Shown piece after piece: positions 1 through 16,320 of a DNA stretch of 52,047 nucleotides (position 1 is the stretch's first letter; each line of letters begins with the position of its first letter). The notes beneath the pieces were generated by a model that was not told the origin of the DNA, did not search any database, and saw nothing but the letters and a program-made list of their open reading frames with translations. The stretch covers positions 1 through 52,047 of the forward strand of contig VGPF01000011.1 of assembly GCA_016875535.1 (NCBI GenBank), read 5' to 3'. Made by a program: the position numbers and the translations under genes. Origin of the DNA: Chloroflexota bacterium (GTDB taxonomy: Bacteria; Chloroflexota; Dehalococcoidia; SHYB01).

Positions 1-67
1 CAAACAAGGTTTGCATTGCGCACCAGGCGCATACTGCCTGGAAGTTGCGAGGGATTAAGGAGGCTCA

Positions 68-5173: not shown

Positions 5174-5743
5174 CTACCGAATAGCCTGAGCAAACTCCGC
5201 GGCAGTCAACACTATGCCGTGGCGCGGGAAAATCTTCTCCACCAGTACCCGGTGCACCTCTTGATCATTGTCCACACAGGCATCTGCTATCACTACGAGA
5301 GAGTAGTCCTTATCGAACGCCTCTCGGTACGTGGACAGGACAACGCCGCTCGTTGAGATGCCGGTCAGGATCAGCAGATCGCGGTTGAGCCCTCTCAGGA
5401 CCACCTCGAGGTCTGAACCGGCGAAGGAGCTGATCCGCCTCTTTGTGACGATAATATCGTTTGTTTTTGGGGCTATCGCCGGGTGTACCATGACCTCGGG
5501 GGTTCCCGAGATCAGCTTCCCGGACTTTTTCACGTCGGCAAAGTAGCCTCGGTCAACGACTTCGGGCAACCCGGGACGAAACTCAACAACAATGTAGAGC
5601 ACCGGGATAGCAGCAGCCCTGGCGTGCTGGATAACCCCACTCAGACGAACGAGAAATTGCGGGTCGCTTGGCAGAAACCGCCTCACCATATCGTTCTGAA
5701 CGTCCATCACAAGTAGCACGGCCTTTGCGAGATCTATCTTCAC
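5174..5743 (-). CDS. Isochorismatase-like cysteine-hydrolase family protein lacking the catalytic Cys
   Basis: An alpha/beta hydrolase of the isochorismatase-like superfamily, 189 residues, normal length. The family Asp is in LLVMDVQNDM (Asp14) and the Lys in VTKRRISSFAG (Lys101). The position that normally holds the nucleophilic Cys (GxxTxxCV) reads GISTSGVV, so Val134 replaces it. True isochorismatases also lack this Cys, and a large uncharacterised subgroup has the same TSGVVLST motif, so this need not be inactivating, but amidase chemistry of the nicotinamidase kind is unlikely. The start is GTG at 5743 with GGGAGG seven bases upstream. It stands alone and convergent with the monooxygenase. 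Confidence 0.85.
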   Translation of the reverse strand: MKIDLAKAVLLVMDVQNDMVRRFLPSDPQFLVRLSGVIQHARAAAIPVLYIVVEFRPGLPEVVDRGYFADVKKSGKLISGTPEVMVHPAIAPKTNDIIVTKRRISSFAGSDLEVVLRGLNRDLLILTGISTSGVVLSTYREAFDKDYSLVVIADACVDNDQEVHRVLVEKIFPRHGIVLTAAEFAQAIR

Positions 5744-6138
5744 CTGAACGCCTCCCGTAACCAGTCAAACGACTTATCCGTACGCGGGCATCCCAGAGGG
5801 GAAACCGCTAGAGCCTTCCATCCCAAACTTCATCCGACTTCTTGGAGCCTGCTAAGTATAGGTTAGGCGGGAGGCGGCTTGAGAGACGATGCCCGTAGGT
5901 CCAGCCAAGCGTGTATTGTTGTTGCCCGTTTACAAGTGTGCTAGACTCGCGCACAATCCATGAGGCGCTGCAGGGAGCCGGACCTCATTATCAGGATTCC
6001 AACCGGGCATCCCGCGTAGTTCCCGTCCGAGATGATTTCCTGACAGCCCCTTTGTCACCATTGGCCGTGCGACCGCCTCTCCTTAGAGCCTCTCCCAATG
6101 GGCGAGAGAACTACGTTGAGCAATCGTAGGTAGCATCC
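5744..6138. other. Intergenic region with candidate promoter for the SDR cluster
   Basis: No gene is supported; a 72-codon frame at 5911-6129 has no ribosome site or recognisable content. A weak promoter candidate is TTGTTG at 5919-5924, 17 bases, then TAGACT at 5942-5947, reading toward the three SDR genes with an untranslated leader of about 190 bases. Confidence 0.35.
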
Positions 6139-6891
6139 ATGCAATTGCAGGGCAAGGTAGCGATGGTGACGGGCGCAGGCTCCGGAATAGGACGCGCCAT
6201 CGCGGTACGCTTTGTTCAAGAGGGCGCTAAGGTCGCTGTCCTGGATGTCAATCAGGCAGGCGGTGAAGAGACGGTCCGCCTGGTGCGCGAACGCGGGGGG
6301 GAGGCGGAGTTCATCAAATGCGATGTCTCGCGGCCCGCGGACGTAAAAGAAGCCGTCACCGCCATCACCCTTCGATTCGGCATGCTACATATCCTGGTGA
6401 ACGATGCCGGCATCCTCAAACTGGAGGATGCATTGGTGGAAGAAGTGCCGGAAGAGATATGGGACGCAGTCATCGGCGTCAATCTGAAGGGCGTTTTCTA
6501 CTGCTCCAAGTACGCCCTTCCTGCGATCATCGCGTCCGGAGGCGGCGCGGTCGTGACGATCGCTTCAACGGCAGGCGCGATCGCCTTTAACCGCCCTGCA
6601 TATGCCGCTTCGAAAAGCGCGGTTATCCCGATGACGCGCGCCCTTGCCCGCCAGCATGCCAAAGACAACGTGCGCGCGAACGTGGTTTGCCCCGGCGGCA
6701 CGGATACGCCGCTAACCCACAGCCAAGGCGTGCCTCCCGCCGGTCAAGGCCCGGCAAAGATACCGGCCATGATTAAGCGCAGGGCCCAGCCGGAGGAGAT
6801 CGCAGCGGCCGTGACCTTCCTTGCCTCCGATGAGGCCTCGTATATCACCGCGGCCGTATTCCTCGTAGACGGGGGGCTGACGGCGTTATGA
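6139..6891 (+). CDS. Short-chain dehydrogenase/reductase (classical SDR), cluster gene 1
   Basis: Predicted NAD(P)-dependent alcohol/ketone oxidoreductase of 250 residues. The cofactor motif TGAGSGIG is at residues 11-18; Asp36 at the end of the second strand favours NAD(H). The structural NNAG motif reads NDAG (88-91), an unusual Asn to Asp change. Ser143, Tyr155 and Lys159 complete the catalytic set, with Asn115 in VNLKG. The C-terminal VDGG motif is present. Its last four bases overlap the next SDR (ATGA), so the two are translationally coupled. The substrate is unknown; relatives include 3-oxoacyl-ACP/CoA reductases and cyclohexanol-type dehydrogenases. Confidence 0.92.
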   Translation: MQLQGKVAMVTGAGSGIGRAIAVRFVQEGAKVAVLDVNQAGGEETVRLVRERGGEAEFIKCDVSRPADVKEAVTAITLRFGMLHILVNDAGILKLEDALVEEVPEEIWDAVIGVNLKGVFYCSKYALPAIIASGGGAVVTIASTAGAIAFNRPAYAASKSAVIPMTRALARQHAKDNVRANVVCPGGTDTPLTHSQGVPPAGQGPAKIPAMIKRRAQPEEIAAAVTFLASDEASYITAAVFLVDGGLTAL

Positions 6892-7664
6892 CAGCAGCGC
6901 AGCGGAGGCGGTTCGAAGGCAAAGGAGTCATCATCACCGGCGGGGGCTCAGGGATCGGGCGCGCGACGGCGCTCGCATTCGCTCGCGAGGGAGGGAATGT
7001 TGCGATAGGAGACATTTCCGAAGCAGGCATGACCGAGGTGACACAGACAATAGAACGGGAAGGCGGCAAGGCGATCTTCGTGAAGGCGGACGTCTCCAAG
7101 GCAGCCGATGTGCAGAACCTTGTGAACCAAGCAGTGAAAAGCTTCGGCGCTGTCCATATCCTCTTTAGCAACGCCGGCATCTATGCGCAGAGTGACACCA
7201 GGGTCATGGATCTGGATGACGATGTCTTTGCCAGAGTCATAGATGTCAACTTGAAAGGGATGTTCCTCTCGGCGAAATATGCGTTGCCCCACATCGTAAA
7301 AAGCGGAGGCGGGGCTGTTGTGATGACTTCCTCCATCGGCGCGCTTGCCGCGGCGTCAACGACGGCATATTCATCAAGCAAGGGGGGAGTATTGGCGCTG
7401 ATGCGCACCATCGCCGTCGAATATGCGGCTAAAGGCGTGCGCGCGAACGCGATCCTGCCCGGGCCTGTGGATACGCCCATCATGACGGACGTGCGCGCCG
7501 CCATGGGCCTTCCGCCAGACGGCAAGATGCCAAAGGGGAACATGCAGAACCGGTGGGCGAAACCCGAGGAAGTAGCCAGCCTGGTCCTATTTCTCTGCTC
7601 GGAAGATGCCTCATACATGACCGGCGGGTCGTTCACTGTGGACGGCGGACAATCGGGGATGTGA
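6888..7664 (+). CDS. Short-chain dehydrogenase/reductase (classical SDR), cluster gene 2
   Basis: A 258-residue classical SDR. TGGGSGIG lies at 17-24, Asp42 points to NAD(H), SNAG at 94-97 replaces NNAG, and the catalytic residues are Ser149, Tyr161 and Lys165. PGPVDTP and TVDGG at the C-terminal end are standard. It overlaps the preceding SDR by four bases and is followed by a third SDR 48 bases on, forming one transcription unit. It resembles its upstream neighbour in the LKGxFxxxKYALPxI stretch, which suggests an old tandem duplication. The substrate cannot be read from the sequence. Confidence 0.92.
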   Translation: MTAAQRRRFEGKGVIITGGGSGIGRATALAFAREGGNVAIGDISEAGMTEVTQTIEREGGKAIFVKADVSKAADVQNLVNQAVKSFGAVHILFSNAGIYAQSDTRVMDLDDDVFARVIDVNLKGMFLSAKYALPHIVKSGGGAVVMTSSIGALAAASTTAYSSSKGGVLALMRTIAVEYAAKGVRANAILPGPVDTPIMTDVRAAMGLPPDGKMPKGNMQNRWAKPEEVASLVLFLCSEDASYMTGGSFTVDGGQSGM

Positions 7665-7712
7665 CCTGAGGCCGTCCGCAGCGTCCCGTAGCGACGGCAT
7701 TGGAAGCACGTG

Positions 7713-8612
7713 ATGCAGAGCCTGTTGGAAGGAAGAGTAGCGGTCGTCACGGGTGCAGGCAGGGGCATCGGTCGAGCGGTTGCCCATAGGCTTTCGGAGA
7801 TGGGCGCGGCCGTCGTCATTAATGACCTTGGGACATCAACGGACGGCACGGGCGCGGATACCTCTCCCGCCGACCAGGTTGTCGGGGAGATACGGGCAAA
7901 AGGTGGTCAAGCTGTCGCGAGCTACGATAGCGTCGCCGATTTTGAAGCGGCAGGGCGAATCATCGGGACTGCCGTAAAGACCTTCGGCAAGATTGATATC
8001 CTCATCAACAACGCCGGCGTCAATATCAGCGCTCCCATCTACGAAATCACGCCAGAGACGTTCGCCACCGTCGTTGGCGTCCACGTCTCCGGGACGTACA
8101 ACTGCACCCGCCATGCTTGCGTCTACATGAAAAACCAGAAGTGGGGACGCATCGTCAACATGGTCTCCCGCGCGAGTCTCATCGGCAGTGTGGGGAACTC
8201 TGCCTATGGAGCCGGCAAAGGCGGGATATTCGGCTTCACGAACGTCGTAAGCCGGGATCTCGCCCCCTTCGGCATCACCGTGAACGGCGTCAACCCGGAT
8301 GCTGCAAACACGCGCATGGTCACCGAAAGCCGGGCACGCTGGAAGCAGGCGGGCCCGAATCCCACTGAAGCCAAACGCATGAAGACCGTGCCGCAAGACC
8401 CCGACAACATCGCGATTGTTGTGACCGCTCTCTGCACCCAGGAGGCCGCACACATCAGCGGCCAGTATTTCCTTGTCCAGGGAAGCCTTGTGGGCCTCTT
8501 TCAGCCGCTAACTATCACAAAGCATATCTACAAGGATGGCATGTGGACCCCAGAAGACCTGGCAAAGGCAATGAATATGATGGGAATACCTCATCTCCCT
8601 GTGGCTTACTAG
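7713..8612 (+). CDS. SDR with C-terminal extension, 3-hydroxyacyl-CoA dehydrogenase-like
   Basis: A 299-residue SDR. TGAGRGIG is at 13-20, NNAG at 99-102, and Ser152, Tyr165 and Lys169 form the active site. The insert VINDLGTSTDGTGADTSPAD after the second strand is the one found in SDR domains of multifunctional beta-oxidation enzymes and related (3R)-hydroxyacyl-CoA dehydrogenases, so an acyl-CoA substrate is plausible. The last 45 residues (QPLTITKHIYKDGMWTPEDLAKAM) extend beyond the usual SDR end. A GTG at 7710 directly before the ATG could also serve as start. It is the third gene of the SDR transcription unit and runs toward the selenoprotein gene on the other strand. Confidence 0.88.
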   Translation: MQSLLEGRVAVVTGAGRGIGRAVAHRLSEMGAAVVINDLGTSTDGTGADTSPADQVVGEIRAKGGQAVASYDSVADFEAAGRIIGTAVKTFGKIDILINNAGVNISAPIYEITPETFATVVGVHVSGTYNCTRHACVYMKNQKWGRIVNMVSRASLIGSVGNSAYGAGKGGIFGFTNVVSRDLAPFGITVNGVNPDAANTRMVTESRARWKQAGPNPTEAKRMKTVPQDPDNIAIVVTALCTQEAAHISGQYFLVQGSLVGLFQPLTITKHIYKDGMWTPEDLAKAMNMMGIPHLPVAY

Positions 8613-8672
8613 GCGGTGCAACAGGGTGCTCTCATCCGGCTCCCGCCGTTGCGGGCCACAGGCGGAACTCCA

Positions 8673-8698
8673 AAGGGCCTCCAGGTTCGGAGGCCTTT
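8673..8698. terminator. Bidirectional hairpin between convergent genes
   Basis: AAGGGCCTCC (8673-8682) pairs with GGAGGCCTTT (8689-8698) around a six-base loop, with one G-T wobble. It lies between the stop of the third SDR and the stop of the selenoprotein gene, the right place for a shared terminator. The flanking T/A tracts are short. Confidence 0.6.
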
Positions 8699-8701
8699 CA
8701 C

Positions 8702-10405
8702 TTACCGGGGCCTCTTGATCTGACGAGTGATCGAGAGGGAGCCGCCGAAGTGGTAGAGACTACGCCCAGCATCGCCGCCAACGACGAAGATATCGAAATA
8801 ATCAGGGTTGCGGAACATGGATATCTCCGTCTCAGGACGGTCCCAGAGCCACTGGAGATGCGGATGCGCAACCTGAAAGGCCTGCTTTGGCTTGTTGAGC
8901 ATCAGGGTGCGGAAGGGCAGGCGCGAACGCTTGTACAAAGCCGCTTTCACATCATGGAGGCTCCAACCGGCGTTACGAAAGACGGTGGCGTGGTCGGGAC
9001 AGAGCAAGATAAGGTTTTGGCGCTCACCATGGAGAGGGCCACCTTCATCCGAGGTGCCGAGCAGCCAGTTGGCTGAGCCTGTTTGCGCGCCGTTCCGGAT
9101 CGCGGAACAGAAAGATTCAATGAGAAGATTCGGGTCGTGGTTCTGGAAGTCGAAGAGCTCACACACGCCGTAAGGGACGTTGACAGTCACGGTGGAGGAG
9201 TCCCGCGGATACCCGCGCGCCACGCGATACGGCTCCCAAGGGTTCGCAGCCTCGTTCTCGGCGACGCAGGCGCTGAACTTCATTGCGCTTCCGATAGTAT
9301 CCATATCACTCACGCCAGGATACGAATGGCCGATATTCATCAATATGAGCCTCAACGTCCGGCCGATGCTCACATTAACGGCTGATATGGAGCCGGGGCC
9401 CAAGGCGCATACGCCATGGTTCATCCCGATCTCCTCCGTAATCGGCCCGCTGACCATAACTACAGGCGCTTGGGGGCCGGTGGACATGGCAAAGGAGCGA
9501 AGCCCTATCAAGGGATCCAGGATGCATTCGGCCATGGCAAGTATGACGGGCATGACCTGGGGCTTGCATCCGGCCATGACCGCATTGACAGTGATCTTCT
9601 CAACGGTCCCGATGCCAAAGCCGGGATCGAAGGTACCAACGATCTCGTCGCCCTTGCGTCCGGAAGCCGCGACCATCGCATCCACCTTCTCTCGGGTCGG
9701 TGGCACAAGGGGCATCCCGTCGCTCCACCCAGCCTTGATGAAGGCGGTGTTCATCTCGTCAAAGCATTCGAGCAAGTCACGGCCCGTGTAGACGAGTTCA
9801 GGGCTTGTGGCAGGGGTAACATGCTTGAAGACCAGTGCCCCGGTGATGGGCTGCCGCTTTTGCGTCAGGGCGGCCAGGACCTGCGGCATCGCCGCATCAA
9901 CCATGGTATGGATGTGCCCTGGATCCTGATTCGTGAAGGGAAGCGGGACCTCTGCTATGGGCATTTCAGGGCAGCCGAAGACGTTGGCGCTCCAGTGGGC
10001 ATCTTCGACAAAGCCCTTGGCCGTCCAAACCACCGTCGCGACGCCCCGCTTCTCCAATTCGCTCATGTCACGCATGAGCACAGACGTGCAACTGCCTCAG
10101 TCGGCGGTTGCGCCGACCACAGCAGCGCATTCGGCCATGCTCTTGAATTGGGCAGGCGACGCTCTGCGAATGAAGGACACCCCTAACTCGCCGAAGAAGT
10201 CGCGAAACTGCGCCTTCGGGAAGAGGCGCTGAAGCTGCTCCCTGGTGCGCGCGAGTCCGATCTCGCCGCCGGCTTTCGCGTTCCAGAAGAACCCGACCGT
10301 CTTTCCATCGAGGGTTGTTGGGCGCGCGGCGGGCGGGAAGCGGTTTGCTCGCGCAGTTGTGGACCTCGCCTCTGCGATTGGGTTCACGATGCGCAGTTCA
10401 GCCAT
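8702..10405 (-). CDS. UGSC-family selenoprotein with in-frame TGA (selenocysteine)
   Basis: A single 567-residue gene interrupted by TGA at 10097-10099. The codons after it read Gly-Ser-Cys, giving U103-G104-S105-C106, the motif that names the UGSC family of (seleno)proteins. Both sides match the family: KTVGFFWNAKAGGE and FIRRASPAQF before it, CTSVLMRDMSELEKRGVATV after it. A large second domain, from about residue 205, begins WSDGMPLVPPTREKV and carries VNAVMAGC. A SECIS-like hairpin starts 17 bases after the TGA. The ATG at 10405 has AGAGGAG at good spacing. Translation restarting after the TGA would lose the first domain. Function is unknown; a thiol/selenol redox role is a guess. No selenocysteine machinery genes lie in the window. 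Confidence 0.88.
10061..10079 (-). promoter_or_regulatory. Bacterial SECIS-like hairpin downstream of UGA
   Basis: On the coding (minus) strand, GCTCATG (10079-10073) and CATGAGC (10067-10061) form a perfect seven-base-pair stem closed by the loop CGTGA. The stem begins 17 bases, and the loop 24 bases, after the TGA, inside the spacing known for bacterial SECIS elements (loop roughly 16-37 bases after UGA). The loop contains G and GU-like residues that SelB recognises in known examples. It lies within coding sequence, as bacterial SECIS elements do. Confidence 0.75.
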
Positions 10406-10429
10406 GATGACTCCTCTGTGCCACCTGAA

Positions 10430-10470
10430 GAAGAGGGGTATCGGCGAGTGCTTCGCCGATACCCCTCTTC
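10430..10470. terminator. 18-bp perfect hairpin, probable terminator
   Basis: The arms 10430-10447 and 10453-10470 are perfectly complementary over 18 bases with a five-base loop. It lies just downstream of the minus-strand solute-binding protein gene (stop at 10490) and 25 bases before the selenoprotein start, so it should end the upstream transcript or act as a strong processing signal. No T tract follows on the minus strand, so classical intrinsic termination is uncertain. Confidence 0.6.
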
Positions 10471-10489
10471 GGTTCTAGAACAATCCGTG

Positions 10490-12199
10490 TTAGGCAGAAA
10501 GCCAGACCCGCTCGAATCGGTACCCGTTCGAATTGACTCCCACGGCTTGAAGAGGGAAGTCCTTTACCTCGCGCGAGAGGGCCTGAAACCGTTTTGTCTC
10601 CGCGGCGGTAATCCACCATGCGAGCTCAACAGACTTTCGCTGAAGCTCCCGGAGCTTTGCTATACGCACTGCACGATCACCAGTCTCGTCCTGCTCTTTG
10701 TACAGGCGGTTGATATCCGGCAGGTCGTATTTCGCGTAATTCTCGGCAACCCCAGGGAGGTAGAACCGTCCATAGTAGCCCGCCGGGTCATCAACGACAG
10801 GCGCGATGCCGCTGAAGTGCGTCGCAAAGGCGCCCGTGTTCCTTCGCTGCAAGATGGTCGCCATATCAACACCCTCGACGGCCATGTCTATGTATATCGC
10901 TCTCAATTGGGTCGCTAAGACTGTTGCCTGATCGCCGTATTGAGCGGCGCTGACCATTACTGAGGTCTTGAGCGGGTTCCTTTCACTGAACCCGGCTTGT
11001 TCCATTAACGACTTGGCTTGCGCAAGGTCCTGAGTCTTCGGAGTCCTCCACCCCGGCAATGTCTTGACTTCGTCCGCAGGCATCGCCCAGATAGTGGCCG
11101 AGGGCAAGCCGTCAACGGCATAGGGATTGCCGGAACCGAAGAGCGCGACTTGCACGTAGGCGGGGCGGTCGAAGGCGAGTTGTATGGCCTGCCTAACCCT
11201 CGCGTCAGTGAAAGGCGCTTGGGTATTGATAAAGAGAATCCCCATGCCGCCAGCCGATTCCAGGATTTGAACTCCAGGAACGGCAGATTTGAGTTGCGGC
11301 GCGTTCAACGCATTCACAATCTGGGTGGAGACGTTGGTCCAATGCAATCGCCCGGTTTGGAAGGCGGCAAGGGCGGCCGCGTTATCGGCAATGACGTAGG
11401 AGTCTATCTGGTCGAGATAGAGCGCCCCTTTAAGGTAAAAGTCGGGGTTCTTTGTCAAGGTCACAACGTTTCCGGGCCTCGCGACGGCATATTTGAAGGA
11501 GCCTGAGCCGATGCGCTTAGACCCCCACTCCTCGCCTATGTGCTTGGGCAACACGACTGCATGAGTGCTGAGAAGGCCGCTGAGAAAGACCAGGTTCGGC
11601 CTTGTGAGCTTCACCACAACGGTTGAAGAGTCGGGCGCTGTGACGGTATCAACAGTGGCTAAGAGCGAACCCAGGAGAGGGGAAAAGGCAGGTTGGCGCT
11701 TGGACATGCGCAGCAGGCTGTAGACGACGTCGTCAACGGTTAAGGGTGCGCCGTCGTGCCACTTCACGCCCTGGCGAATCTTAAAGGTCCACGTTGTGCC
11801 GTCGGCGCTCTGCGTATAGCTCTCGGCGAGGTCCGGCTCGATGGCTGTCTCGTTATAGGCGCCGTATCGGATCAGGTTGTTCACAAGGGGTTGGAGCGGC
11901 AGAATAAAGGAGTCCGCCGAACGCGCCTTGTGAAAGTCGTTGTTTGGATTGGGGTCCGAACTTACCCGGGTGGCGAATGTTCCGCCCAGGCGTGGCGAGG
12001 GCGTCGGCGTCGGAGGGATAGGGGTTGCTGTCGGAGTAGGCTGTAGGGGGGTCGCCGTTGGGGCCGGTGTGTTAGTAGGAGCAGGTCTGCTCGTGGCAGT
12101 CGGAGGCGTCTCATCGTCGCCACCACAGCCACTCAGTACCAGAGCCATCACCAGAAAGCACGCGAAAATCGTTACTATTGGGCGATTCAAGAACTTCAT
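10490..12199 (-). CDS. ABC-type peptide/nickel-family solute-binding lipoprotein
   Basis: Extracytoplasmic family 5 (DppA/OppA/NikA-like) solute-binding protein, 569 residues. A lipoprotein signal peptide ends in VLSGC with Cys25 as the lipidated residue. A linker of repeated Thr-Pro (residues about 30-70) follows, then the mature domain starting at GGTFATRVSSDPNPN. The family block WTFKIRQGVKWHDGAPLTVDDVVYSLLRM is clear. I chose the ATG at 12199 (GAGGA eight bases upstream, clean signal peptide) over an upstream in-frame start at 12283. It is a close paralog of the gene at 14644-16320. No permease or ATPase genes are adjacent, so its transporter must lie elsewhere or it has another role. Confidence 0.93.
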   Translation of the reverse strand: MKFLNRPIVTIFACFLVMALVLSGCGGDDETPPTATSRPAPTNTPAPTATPLQPTPTATPIPPTPTPSPRLGGTFATRVSSDPNPNNDFHKARSADSFILPLQPLVNNLIRYGAYNETAIEPDLAESYTQSADGTTWTFKIRQGVKWHDGAPLTVDDVVYSLLRMSKRQPAFSPLLGSLLATVDTVTAPDSSTVVVKLTRPNLVFLSGLLSTHAVVLPKHIGEEWGSKRIGSGSFKYAVARPGNVVTLTKNPDFYLKGALYLDQIDSYVIADNAAALAAFQTGRLHWTNVSTQIVNALNAPQLKSAVPGVQILESAGGMGILFINTQAPFTDARVRQAIQLAFDRPAYVQVALFGSGNPYAVDGLPSATIWAMPADEVKTLPGWRTPKTQDLAQAKSLMEQAGFSERNPLKTSVMVSAAQYGDQATVLATQLRAIYIDMAVEGVDMATILQRRNTGAFATHFSGIAPVVDDPAGYYGRFYLPGVAENYAKYDLPDINRLYKEQDETGDRAVRIAKLRELQRKSVELAWWITAAETKRFQALSREVKDFPLQAVGVNSNGYRFERVWLSA

Positions 12200-12614
12200 C
12201 CTTGTCCTCGCTTTCCCCAACAGAATCCTTCGCCGATCGGTGAATCGAGTGCCCAGATTCGCGCCTGGCCCCAATTCTCTCACCTGCTGTCTATGGCTCC
12301 GAGTGTGACCACAGCCTCTGAATCAGGAGGAGGCCATACATGGCACGATATGCATCCGATGCAATCTCTACCTACGACGCTGGCAGCAATGCCAGAATTG
12401 TCGCTGGCTTAGCACCCGGGATCCATCGCGATGGGGCATCCGGCATGCTCCGTCATATCTGGGACATCCCGCCAGGTGATTCGAGGTCCTTCCTTAAGCA
12501 GGGGGTAATCGTCAGAAATGCGGGCTAGTCACAGCGGTATCCAGGCATCCCAGGGCGATAGTATTATGACCAACGTTCCTGTAGACGGTGTGCCTCATAG
12601 AGAAGGGAGCGGCC
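12200..12614. other. Intergenic region between divergent genes
   Basis: The region separates the solute-binding lipoprotein (minus) from an SDR (plus). It contains one small frame with a strong ribosome site, listed separately. No clear consensus promoter was found by eye. Confidence 0.4.
12340..12528 (+). CDS. Possible small protein, 62 residues
   Basis: The only support is an excellent Shine-Dalgarno run (AGGAGGAGG) ending six to seven bases before the ATG. The sequence matches no family I know. It is mostly polar, with GLAPGIHRDGASG in the middle and no membrane segment. It could be a genuine small gene, the truncated start of a lost gene, or a chance frame upstream of the SDR at 12615. 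Confidence 0.3.
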   Translation: MARYASDAISTYDAGSNARIVAGLAPGIHRDGASGMLRHIWDIPPGDSRSFLKQGVIVRNAG

Positions 12615-13448
12615 ATGTTGGATCTCACTGCGGTTTCACTCAAGGGCAAAGTTGCGATCGTGACCGGAGGAGGCGGAGGCATAGGACGGAGTGTCTCTGA
12701 AACGTTCGCTGCCTATGGGGCGAAGGTGGTCGTCGCCGAACGGGATGCCGGTCGCGCGCACGAGACCGTCGCCGCCATTGCAAAACGAGGCGGGCAAGCC
12801 TTGGCCTCAGTAGTGGATGTCCAGGAAAAAGAACAGGTGGCCCAGATGAAGGCTGCCGCGGTCAAAGAGTTCGGAAAGGTTGATATCCTCGTGAATAACG
12901 TCGGCGACTTTCTGGGCATCAAAAAGAACTTCATCAGAACGTCAGAAGAGGACTGGGAGGCGCTCTACCGTATCAACCTGAAGCAAGTCTTCTACTGCAC
13001 CCATGCCATCGCGCCGCTCATGATCGAGCAAGGAAAAGGCGGCAGCATCATCAACGTCTCCACCATAGAGGCCTTTCGCGGCATCCCGGGCGGCTCTATC
13101 TATGCCACGTTTAAGGGGGGCATCACTCAGTTCACAAAGAGCATTGCGTTGGAGCTGGCGAAATACCAGATCCGCGTCAACGCGATCGCGCCGGAGACAA
13201 CCGAAACCCTGCAGGTGCAGGCTGTCGAGCGTGTTCCCCCGGAGCAACGGTCGTTGATCCCCTACTGGATACCCCTGGGCCGCTACGGCGATCCGGACGA
13301 CCTCGCAGGGGTGGCTGTCTTCCTGGCATCGGACCTCTCCCGATGGGTGACGGGCATCACCGTGAACCTTGATGGCGGCGCCTATGCTGCGGGAGGCTTT
13401 TACCGCCAACCAAGCGGCGGGTGGACCAGTCGTCCCCCTCTCGCATAA
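12615..13448 (+). CDS. Short-chain dehydrogenase/reductase (classical SDR)
   Basis: A 277-residue SDR with TGGGGGIG at 17-24, NNVG (94-97) in place of NNAG, Ser149, Tyr163 and Lys167 (YATFK). A C-terminal extension beyond VNLDGG ends in an aromatic/Pro-rich tail (GGFYRQPSGGWTSRPPLA), longer than usual. A GTG at 12588 would add nine residues, but the ATG at 12615 has AAGGGAG at the right distance and aligns with the usual SDR start. It is monocistronic as far as visible, divergent from the solute-binding lipoprotein. The substrate is unknown. Confidence 0.9.
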   Translation: MLDLTAVSLKGKVAIVTGGGGGIGRSVSETFAAYGAKVVVAERDAGRAHETVAAIAKRGGQALASVVDVQEKEQVAQMKAAAVKEFGKVDILVNNVGDFLGIKKNFIRTSEEDWEALYRINLKQVFYCTHAIAPLMIEQGKGGSIINVSTIEAFRGIPGGSIYATFKGGITQFTKSIALELAKYQIRVNAIAPETTETLQVQAVERVPPEQRSLIPYWIPLGRYGDPDDLAGVAVFLASDLSRWVTGITVNLDGGAYAAGGFYRQPSGGWTSRPPLA

Positions 13449-13677
13449 GCAGTGATTACTTGACGGTAATCCTTGTCTGACCAACTTCATCCCTCGGTAG
13501 GTCACCTATTTCTTCGAGGTAAGAAGCGGCAACCACCCACGGTCAACAGGGCCCATTGATGGCGACCAGTGGGTGAAGAGCGCGTAGGAGTCTTCATCAC
13601 CGATGGATGTTTCATCGGTGTCCGGGAATCAATTGGGGGCGGTATACAGGCAATCGAGCATTGCTTTCCCCCTGCCG

Positions 13678-14418
13678 TTATGAGCCCATCTTGTGCATGG
13701 GCCGAACGGCACCGACGGGGCTGACTCGCTTGAAGGTGTTGACGTACCACATCTCCCTGGAGGGGTGTTTCGCCCATTCCTTGAACATCGGGGTCTCCTC
13801 ACCCAGCAACCGCCTTACCGTCGCCACCATCTGGCGAACGTCGCTATCGGGGTCCTCGCTATCAAGCTCGTAAAGGTGCAGCCAAAGGGGTCCTTCCGTT
13901 TGGGAGAGGGCGTTCTCATAGCGCGTGATCATGGTGAAGCCCTTGGGCATTGCCTGGACGATGTAGCGGATATGGATATGCTCCGCCCACCGGGTGAAGT
14001 CCTTATCGCCGCGAATCATGACTAGCGATATGCCGTTGATCGGCTTCTCGGACGTGTGGCCCTGGGCCGGTTCCGGCCTGCGCCAGAACATCGTTTGGAA
14101 GGTGCACTGGAAGGCCGGGTGGAGCTCCCCTGTCTTCTCCCACTCCTGCCAACGGCGTTGCATCGCATCATAGGCTTTGCGGGTATCCGGCCAATTCGTT
14201 TCGTAGATCGTGCAATAGATGGCCTCGGGGACACGTCGCTCGTACTCAGGGCGGTTCGGGGCGGTGTTCCTGAACCGGATGCCGTTATAGAGCGCTCCTG
14301 TCCCAATCATCTTTGGGATATGCACCTTCTCGTACCATTCGTTGAAGGCCACTTCGGCCTTCGGGTCGGTGCAGTTGGCCATCTCGATCAGCACGCCTGT
14401 GGGTGTCCTATCTTCCAT
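13678..14418 (-). CDS. Uncharacterised protein, two ferredoxin-like (dimeric alpha/beta barrel) halves
   Basis: 246 residues, no signal peptide. Two half-repeats are visible. The first (residues 8-110) carries FNEWYEKVHIPKMIGTGALYNG and the second (about 130-230) carries FTRWAEHIHIRYIVQAMPKGF. The pattern of Trp then His-x-Pro/Arg in the first helix of each half is that of dimeric alpha/beta barrel proteins such as EthD-like and DUF-type enzymes found beside SDR and CoA-transferase genes in catabolic clusters. The assignment of fold is an inference from these motifs; no reaction can be named. It lies downstream of, and on the same strand as, the second solute-binding lipoprotein, but a strong hairpin separates them. 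Confidence 0.7.
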   Translation of the reverse strand: MEDRTPTGVLIEMANCTDPKAEVAFNEWYEKVHIPKMIGTGALYNGIRFRNTAPNRPEYERRVPEAIYCTIYETNWPDTRKAYDAMQRRWQEWEKTGELHPAFQCTFQTMFWRRPEPAQGHTSEKPINGISLVMIRGDKDFTRWAEHIHIRYIVQAMPKGFTMITRYENALSQTEGPLWLHLYELDSEDPDSDVRQMVATVRRLLGEETPMFKEWAKHPSREMWYVNTFKRVSPVGAVRPMHKMGS

Positions 14419-14557
14419 GCACTTCCTCCGTTGGTACTGCCGGGCATCCGAATTCTACTGAAGTGAGACATGCCAGGCACGCTGTCGCAAGGCGTGGGCT
14501 ATAGGCAGCATCTGCCAAATATGGATTCCCAGCCCGCTCGCGTTGCCGTAAAACGCT

Positions 14558-14590
14558 GCACGGGCCTCCGGAGAAACCGGAGGCCCGTGC
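14558..14590. terminator. 14-bp GC-rich hairpin terminator
   Basis: GCACGGGCCTCCGG (14558-14571) and CCGGAGGCCCGTGC (14577-14590) form a perfect stem with an AGAAA loop. On the minus strand it follows the stop of the solute-binding protein (14644) by about 55 bases. No long T tract is present, but the stem is strong and well placed. Confidence 0.65.
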
Positions 14591-14643
14591 CCAATTCAAC
14601 GCTATGGTCGGCCAGGTCGCTCTGACCCTTGGAGCAACGGCTT

Positions 14644-16320
14644 CTAGGAGGCCAGCCAAACCTGCTCAAAGCGGAAGAGGTTCGCGTTCACGCCCAGGAG
14701 TCCAGGCGGGAACTGCCGCACCTGTGGTGGTACGGGGCTGACCCGCTGTGTCTCTCCCAGCATGGTCCACCACCCCAGCTCGATGGCCGCGAGCTGCAAC
14801 TCTCTCACTTTCCTTACACGCGCATTGACATCTATGATCCTGTCTTGCTCATCGTACAAGCGGTTGATGTCCGGCAGGTCAAACTTAGACCAATTGTCAG
14901 TCACGCCGGGAAGATAGAACCGAGCGTAGGTCCCGGCCGGGTCATCAATGGTGCCGGCGGCGGAGAGGAAGATGATCTCGAAGTCGCCGGAGGCTCTCCT
15001 TGCCGCGGAGGTGGCGCCGTCCAATGCTTCCACCCGCGCATCAATGAATATCTTCCGCAGCTGGGTTGCCGCCACCGCAGCCTGCTGATCGAAGTTCGGA
15101 GCGAGGGTGTGCATCCTGGTCACGAGCTTGTTGGAATCGCTGTACCCTGCCTGCTGCATGAGGGAACGCGCTTCCGCTAGGTCTTGATCCTTCGGCAGCC
15201 TCCAGCCGGGGAGAAGCTTCGCCTCCTCAGCGGGCATGGCCCAGATGGAGCTGCTGGGCAAAATGTCCACGTTGTAGGGGTTGCCATCGCCGGCCAGAGC
15301 CACCTGCACGAATTCGGGCCGGTCGTACACCAGCCGTATCGCGCGCCTCACTCTGGCATCAGTGAACGGTGCGGTCTGCTTAAGCAAGGAATAGTAGGTG
15401 CCGCTCGGCGCCTTGTTGAGGGTGACCCCAGGGATCGCGTCCCTCACCTGCTTTTCGTTCGAGGGGTTGACGACCGCAGGCGCGACGCCCGGCCAGTGGA
15501 GTCTTCCCGTGATGAACGCTGCCACCGTTGCCGCATTATCGGCGATCGTATAGTAGTCAATCTGGTCCAGGTAGGGCATGCCCTTGGCGTAATACTCCGT
15601 ATGCTTCACCAGGGAGGTGACGTTCGAGGGCTTTATTGATCCCAACTTGAACGGCCCCGACCCTATCGGCGTCTTATCGAAGTTGTCCCCCAGATGCTTC
15701 GGCAGCACCACGGCATGAGTGCTGAGTAAACCGTTGAAGAAAACCAGCGTCGGCTTGCTGAGCTTCACCACAACCGTCGAGCTGTCAGGGGCCGTCACTG
15801 TATCAACGCTTGCGAAGACGCCGACTAGCAGCGGCGTGAACGAAGACCTCTTCGACATGCGCAGCAGGCTGTGCACCACGTCGTCCGCCGTGAGCGCCGT
15901 TCCATCGTGCCACTTCACTCCCTGGCGGATCTTGAACGTCCAGGTCGTGCCGTCGCTGCTTGTCTGGTAGCTCTCTGCGATATCCGGCTCGATGGATTTC
16001 TCGTTATATGCTCCAAACCGGACCAGATTGCTGATCAGAGGTTGGGAGCGGGTCAGCGTGTCATTGGAGCGCCGGATATGGGGGTCCCAGTTCACCGGAT
16101 CGGTAGGCAGGCGCGTATTGAACGTGCCGCCGACACGCGGCTGAGGCGTTGGAGTGGGAGGAACGGGTGTGGGGGTTGCTGCGACAGTGGGCGCCGCAGG
16201 GGGTTGAGCGGGAGCCTTCGTTGCCGCTGGTTCTGAATCGTCCCCGCCGCACGCGGTGACGATAAACGCCAGCACCACAACGAGCGCGAAGAGTCTTACA
16301 TAGCGATTGACGATTTTCAT
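14644..16320 (-). CDS. ABC-type peptide/nickel-family solute-binding lipoprotein (paralog)
   Basis: A 558-residue family 5 solute-binding protein. The signal peptide ends VTAC, lipidated at Cys24, followed by an Ala/Pro/Thr linker to about residue 62 and then the mature domain from GGTFNTRLPTDPVNWDP. WTFKIRQGVKWHDGTALTADDVVHSLLRM is nearly identical to the paralog at 10490-12199, and similarity runs along the full length, so the pair arose by duplication. The ATG has GAGGAG five bases upstream, and a near-consensus promoter lies 75 bases upstream of it. No transporter membrane genes are adjacent. The ligand is unknown; peptides, opines and metal chelates are all bound in this family. Confidence 0.93.
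   Translation of the reverse strand: MKIVNRYVRLFALVVVLAFIVTACGGDDSEPAATKAPAQPPAAPTVAATPTPVPPTPTPQPRVGGTFNTRLPTDPVNWDPHIRRSNDTLTRSQPLISNLVRFGAYNEKSIEPDIAESYQTSSDGTTWTFKIRQGVKWHDGTALTADDVVHSLLRMSKRSSFTPLLVGVFASVDTVTAPDSSTVVVKLSKPTLVFFNGLLSTHAVVLPKHLGDNFDKTPIGSGPFKLGSIKPSNVTSLVKHTEYYAKGMPYLDQIDYYTIADNAATVAAFITGRLHWPGVAPAVVNPSNEKQVRDAIPGVTLNKAPSGTYYSLLKQTAPFTDARVRRAIRLVYDRPEFVQVALAGDGNPYNVDILPSSSIWAMPAEEAKLLPGWRLPKDQDLAEARSLMQQAGYSDSNKLVTRMHTLAPNFDQQAAVAATQLRKIFIDARVEALDGATSAARRASGDFEIIFLSAAGTIDDPAGTYARFYLPGVTDNWSKFDLPDINRLYDEQDRIIDVNARVRKVRELQLAAIELGWWTMLGETQRVSPVPPQVRQFPPGLLGVNANLFRFEQVWLAS

Follow-up and report, generated by a model that had tools for sequence, protein, structure and literature searches.

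In the present study, we analysed a 52,047-nucleotide stretch of DNA from a Chloroflexota (Dehalococcoidia) genome, referred to here as the window, and found that the hairpin at positions 10079-10061 of its minus strand is very probably the bacterial SECIS of a UGSC-family selenoprotein gene. The hairpin was judged to be a genuine SECIS because it is conserved in close genes that carry the UGA, with decay in Cys homologues. The SECIS itself belongs to a known kind of element, and the UGSC selenoprotein family had already been described. The features of the gene and the hairpin are collected in Table 1.

Table 1. Positions of the UGSC-family gene, its UGA codon and the putative SECIS in the window
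Feature	Position	Strand	Basis
UGSC-family selenoprotein gene, 567 aa, UGA103 read as Sec	8702..10405	minus	Read-through frame, profile matches, relatives
Codons UGA-GGC-AGU-UGC, U-G-S-C motif (UxxC)	10088..10099	minus	Sequence
In-frame UGA (Sec codon)	10099..10097	minus	Almost every relative in the class has UGA at this codon; three Cys homologues have TGC/TGT
SECIS stem, 5' arm GCUCAUG	10079..10073 (+18..+24 after the UGA)	minus	Sequence, folding, relatives
SECIS apical loop CGUGA	10072..10068 (+25..+29)	minus	Invariant in 8/8 close UGA genes
SECIS stem, 3' arm CAUGAGC	10067..10061 (+30..+36)	minus	Sequence, folding, relatives

In the proposed mechanism, SelB carrying Sec-tRNA(UCA) would attach through its C-terminal winged helices to the CGUGA pentaloop at the end of the 7-8-bp stem. 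When a ribosome reached the UGA at 10099-10097, SelB would deliver Sec, after which another 464 codons, including the rest of the U-G-S-C motif, would be translated. We infer both SelB binding and actual Sec insertion at this codon.

The selenoprotein gene and the Sec machinery of its host

Previous studies have described the UGSC-containing protein as an abundant selenoprotein family of the Global Ocean Sampling data, with 255 Sec and 21 Cys sequences (PMC2398784), and UGSC is present on the current prokaryotic selenoprotein list (PMC13188914). The window protein is a fusion of an N-terminal UGSC domain (about residues 6-182) with a C-terminal region that spans about 350 aa and is conserved. 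Pfam PF24696 (UGSC) matched residues 6-182 with 100.6 bits against a cut-off of 25 and was also matched by 22 of 22 relatives; the C-terminal region had no match in Pfam. The NCBIfam UGSC equivalog NF041046 was matched over its full length (1-147/147) with 88 bits, which is below the curated cut-off of 125, and the window protein therefore appears from its sequence to be a related but divergent UGSC branch. The protein shares with the Global Ocean Sampling UGSC selenoproteins (PMC2398784) the UGSC motif, the UxxC arrangement and the Sec/Cys exchange at the UGA codon, but differs from them in carrying the fused C-terminal region; in other genomes and in paralogues, this region has a neighbouring gene of its own. 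The genome of the window also has the UGSC and C-terminal halves as adjacent separate genes (L025/L027, L023/L026, L024/L028, L021), and the UGSC gene of a Natrinema plasmid is adjoined by a hypothetical protein.

A confident structural model (pLDDT 89) showed an alpha/beta domain in which residue 103 follows strand 95-99 and stands at the opening of helix 104-119, and this modelled position would fit a redox motif. In fold comparison, the matches over residues 30-195 were generic three-layer alpha/beta folds only, which identify no function (best match with Z 10.6 over 129 residues at an rmsd of 2.9; Foldseek E no better than 1e-3), and no sequence relative of the window protein was found among solved structures. 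The gene neighbours at window positions 5174-16320 included four SDR-type oxidoreductases, two peptide/nickel-type ABC substrate-binding proteins and an isochorismatase-like hydrolase, and gave no clear pathway for the selenoprotein.

The host genome encodes a tRNA-Sec with anticodon TCA, SelA (542 bits), SelB (334 bits, with SelB-wing_2, SelB-wing_3 and the SelB beta-barrel domain) and SelD (371 bits), the last with its own frame interrupted by one UGA. The four genes selA, selB, selC and selD, whose presence in a genome marks Sec decoding, were thus all found. The UGA of selD lies in L092 at codon 1531-1533, in the context TKCGG-U-AAKYGPGDL, and SelD is apparently a selenoprotein too; the hairpin downstream of it is weak (GGUC-CGGGC-GACC, -3.3 kcal/mol).

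Standard ORF calling splits the 567-aa gene in two at the UGA, which is what speaks for taking the codon as an ordinary stop, in a truncated or decaying gene or through an assembly error, with an incidental hairpin. We regard this explanation as highly improbable. Dozens of genes from many families have a UGA at the same codon, with the frame intact before and after it, and homologues carry Cys at the UGA codon. Furthermore, the D-U/C-G-x-C motif (Asp102, Sec/Cys103, Gly104 and Cys106) was invariant in 22 relatives, and the Sec machinery of the host is complete. The reading of the UGA as a Sec codon is retained below.

Geometry of the hairpin and its expectation by chance

The original prediction, made from the letters of the window, described a perfect seven-pair stem with a CGUGA loop, 17 nt from the UGA to the stem and 24 nt from the UGA to the loop, and this description was exact in the sequence. 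The UGA and the 5' arm are separated by GGCAGUUGCACGUCUGU (17 nt). The stem GCUCAUG/CAUGAGC consists of seven Watson-Crick pairs closed by a 5-nt loop, without a bulge, and an extra U-G pair (10080/10060) makes a stem of 8 bp possible. The energy was -9.5 kcal/mol for the stem alone and -13.2 kcal/mol for the first 40 nt. Folding of the sequence after the UGA predicted this stem with a probability of 0.99 in the first 45 nt and of 0.92 in the first 60 nt, the latter being the folding check that had been proposed with the prediction. The E. coli fdhF-type SECIS has a bulged U in the upper stem below its G-U loop; the window stem, in contrast, is perfect and unbulged. No SECIS-like match was obtained in Rfam at the gathering threshold, nor at E values up to 10 on the local stretch.

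According to the bSECIS model (PMC13188914), a bacterial SECIS has a loop of 3-9 nt, a stem of 4-16 bp, a G within the first two loop positions that mostly precedes G or U, a spacing of 16-37 nt from the UGA to the apical loop, and an energy of at most -7.5 kcal/mol. The window hairpin has a 5-nt loop on 7-8 bp, a G at the second loop position (C-G-U-G-A), a spacing of 24 nt and an energy of -9.5 kcal/mol, so that its claimed likeness to known bacterial SECIS elements held for every rule of the model. It agrees with the published consensus (PMC13188914 Fig. 2) in lying in frame directly after the UGA and in having loop G2 followed by U, and none of its values falls beyond the published ranges.

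In the same genome, the loops after other UGSC UGA codons were AGUAU (L027, L028), AGUUU (L026) and AGUGU (L021), and the loop after the SelD UGA was CGGGC; the L026 stem has one mismatch, and the stems of L021 and L026 are short or imperfect. All seven same-genome loops, among which CGUGA occurs twice, read NG[U/G]NN, although the weaker stems were chosen by eye with the consensus known. These loops are consistent with a single SelB that would recognise loop positions 2-3 as G-U or G-G and would work over spacings of 16 to 24 nt.

The frequency of such hairpins by chance was evaluated on the 1542 TGA triplets of the window. The general bSECIS rules were passed after 6-8% of these triplets at -7.5 kcal/mol and after 3% at -9.5 kcal/mol, and an NG[U/G]NN pentaloop on a stem of at least 7 bp followed only 0.1-0.3% of them. 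Among the 25 window TGAs with at least 80 open codons on either side, the hairpin was the sole one below -8 kcal/mol. Dinucleotide-shuffle folding of the 62-nt region was unremarkable and uninformative (z -0.31). When codons were resampled with the protein kept fixed, an energy at least as good was reached with P = 0.033, and all seven pairs formed in 5-18% of cases (P = 0.093 at this place). The hairpin of this single gene, taken alone, is marginal under a protein-preserving null and only suggestive. It had been put forward as independent support for Sec insertion; as a single hairpin it is weak in that role because the protein sequence favours such pairing, and the support comes instead from conservation and synonymous constraint.

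The same resampling result speaks for an alternative in which the UGA is a Sec codon but the stem arises only as a by-product of a conserved peptide, L-[M/V]-R-D-M-S, with Sec insertion driven by another, weaker structure, for example a proximal GCAC-GUCU-GUGC fold or a relic of a nearer hairpin. The proximal fold of the window gene, however, was not common to relatives. The comparison with relatives given below supplies the remaining evidence on both sides of this alternative.

Conservation and synonymous constraint in close UGA relatives

Eight distinct UGA genes in total made up the close set. Two belong to the genome of the window (the window gene and its paralogue), five come from three further genomes of its taxonomic family, and the eighth is L096. 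The set was drawn from the contig scan, from class and phylum samples, from the order of an Actinomycetota homologue and from plasmids. The proteins of the full-length close relatives were 61-83% identical to the window protein. The contig with the full paralogue also carries, about 8 kb away from it, the fragment L020 (G000:C27:1232-1948), which is 68% identical to the window protein in its C-terminal part and is probably a broken copy or a separate gene. L096 (G798:C193:148648-150357) is a UGA homologue, 61% identical and with the same hairpin. It comes from a genome of the order to which an Actinomycetota MAG belongs, and the copy in that MAG (L031) is of the Cys type; this suggests either inter-phylum transfer or a misplaced contig.

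Loss of the stem in relatives that keep the UGA had been named as the result that would count against a SECIS. All seven pairs and the identical CGUGA loop at +24 were kept in all eight close UGA genes, so within this set the stem survived. The distant UGA relatives, in contrast, have another stem 6 nt nearer to the UGA, and the conservation extends to the close genes only. In the seven full-length genes, synonymous identity was 0.93 over the seven hairpin codons and 0.51 gene-wide. The hairpin codons ranked first among 566 windows (P = 7e-5 by permutation of same-amino-acid columns elsewhere in the gene), and nothing remarkable was seen in the codon sets immediately upstream or downstream of the UGA or in the set past the hairpin. 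Among 13 invariant Arg columns, the CGU of the loop was the only one invariant at the codon level. These results demonstrated that an RNA-level constraint falls on the hairpin codons, and RNA-level conservation in UGA-bearing orthologues, in 8/8 genes and with the above P value, can be set beside the rules of the bSECIS model.

A search for compensatory changes in the stem had also been proposed. Four of the seven core pairs never varied, and three varied solely to G-U; the changes were U-A to U-G, C-G to U-G and A-U to G-U, always one-sided. No compensatory double change was found in the seven core pairs among the eight close UGA genes, covariation was not above that of shuffles (118/500), and a two-sided change was seen only in the outer eighth pair. 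In L096, the stem probability was only 0.35-0.39, with a competing fold.

The one-sided core changes and the competing fold in L096 agree with the by-product alternative. Against it, no synonymous sites of the gene are better conserved than those of the hairpin, where the amino acids by themselves would permit drift; the nearer stem is broken in all eight close genes, where 2-5 of its 7 pairs remain; and the window-type stem decays in a Cys homologue nested among these genes. On balance, we consider the by-product explanation improbable, and the hairpin is treated in the following as the putative SECIS of the window gene.

A second hairpin position and the Cys homologues

The distant UGSC fusion genes of the class (L042-L075) keep the UGA and have a hairpin at +12..18/+24..30, with the loop 18-19 nt after the UGA; examples are GUCGUGG-CUUGU-CCACGAC and GUCGUGG-AUGGU-CCACGAC. 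Across 22 genes, including the stand-alone UGSC genes of the genome that holds the window, 93% of cells paired in this nearer stem, three pairs changed on both sides, and covariation exceeded that of all 500 shuffles and all slid controls. The window stem was also tried as a stem common to the distant relatives and was rejected, with 59% of cells pairing, the same as in shuffles. The window hairpin resembles the nearer hairpins (L042-L075; L021, L026-L028) in being a pentaloop-type hairpin straight after the UGA of a homologous gene; it differs from them in lying 6 nt, or two codons, farther from the UGA and in its stem sequence. The loop CGUGA recurs in L078 (G048:C403, minus strand, near position 1461), a very distant UGSC gene with 26% identity; it again lies 24 nt after the UGA and there closes another stem, of 5 bp (CUGCG/CGCAG), by chance or by convergence.

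In the protein tree, L042 and L043, which have the nearer hairpin, formed the outgroup; the Cys genes L032 and L033 branched first, followed by the window clade, and the Cys gene L031 was nested inside that clade. L032 retained 7/7 and L033 6/7 pairs of the nearer stem. L031 retained 6/7 pairs of the window-type stem with a CGGGA loop, and the energy of this stem was down to -1.9 kcal/mol. Cys homologues that retain remnants of SECIS-like structures are known from earlier work (PMC1794560 Fig. 4); the UGSC family differs from those cases in that remnants of both hairpin positions are seen in one family. The simplest history would take the nearer hairpin (loop at 18-19 nt) as ancestral and would involve Cys replacement at least twice.

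In the window branch, a new hairpin two codons downstream would have replaced the nearer one. We lean towards the interpretation that the SECIS was relocated by two codons within one selenoprotein family, with loss of the old hairpin and a new stem sequence, and that one SelB serves both positions. The route may have passed through an intermediate that could form both folds, as in L096, which retains 5/7 pairs of the nearer stem, or possibly through a Cys ancestor, the L032/L033 branch lying between the two types. This change of position within one family would be the least expected part of the finding, and more sequences are needed to establish it.

A survey of 2006 listed three Chloroflexi selenoproteins (PMC1794560), and our literature search found no paper naming both SECIS and Chloroflexota. 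The hairpin provides a well-supported SECIS, with a defined loop and a conserved stem, for a phylum in which few have been described, and the gene shows that a 567-aa selenoprotein is split in two by standard annotation. The two hairpin positions, together with the decayed Cys copies, would form a natural series for how a SECIS moves and for the spacing tolerance of one SelB.
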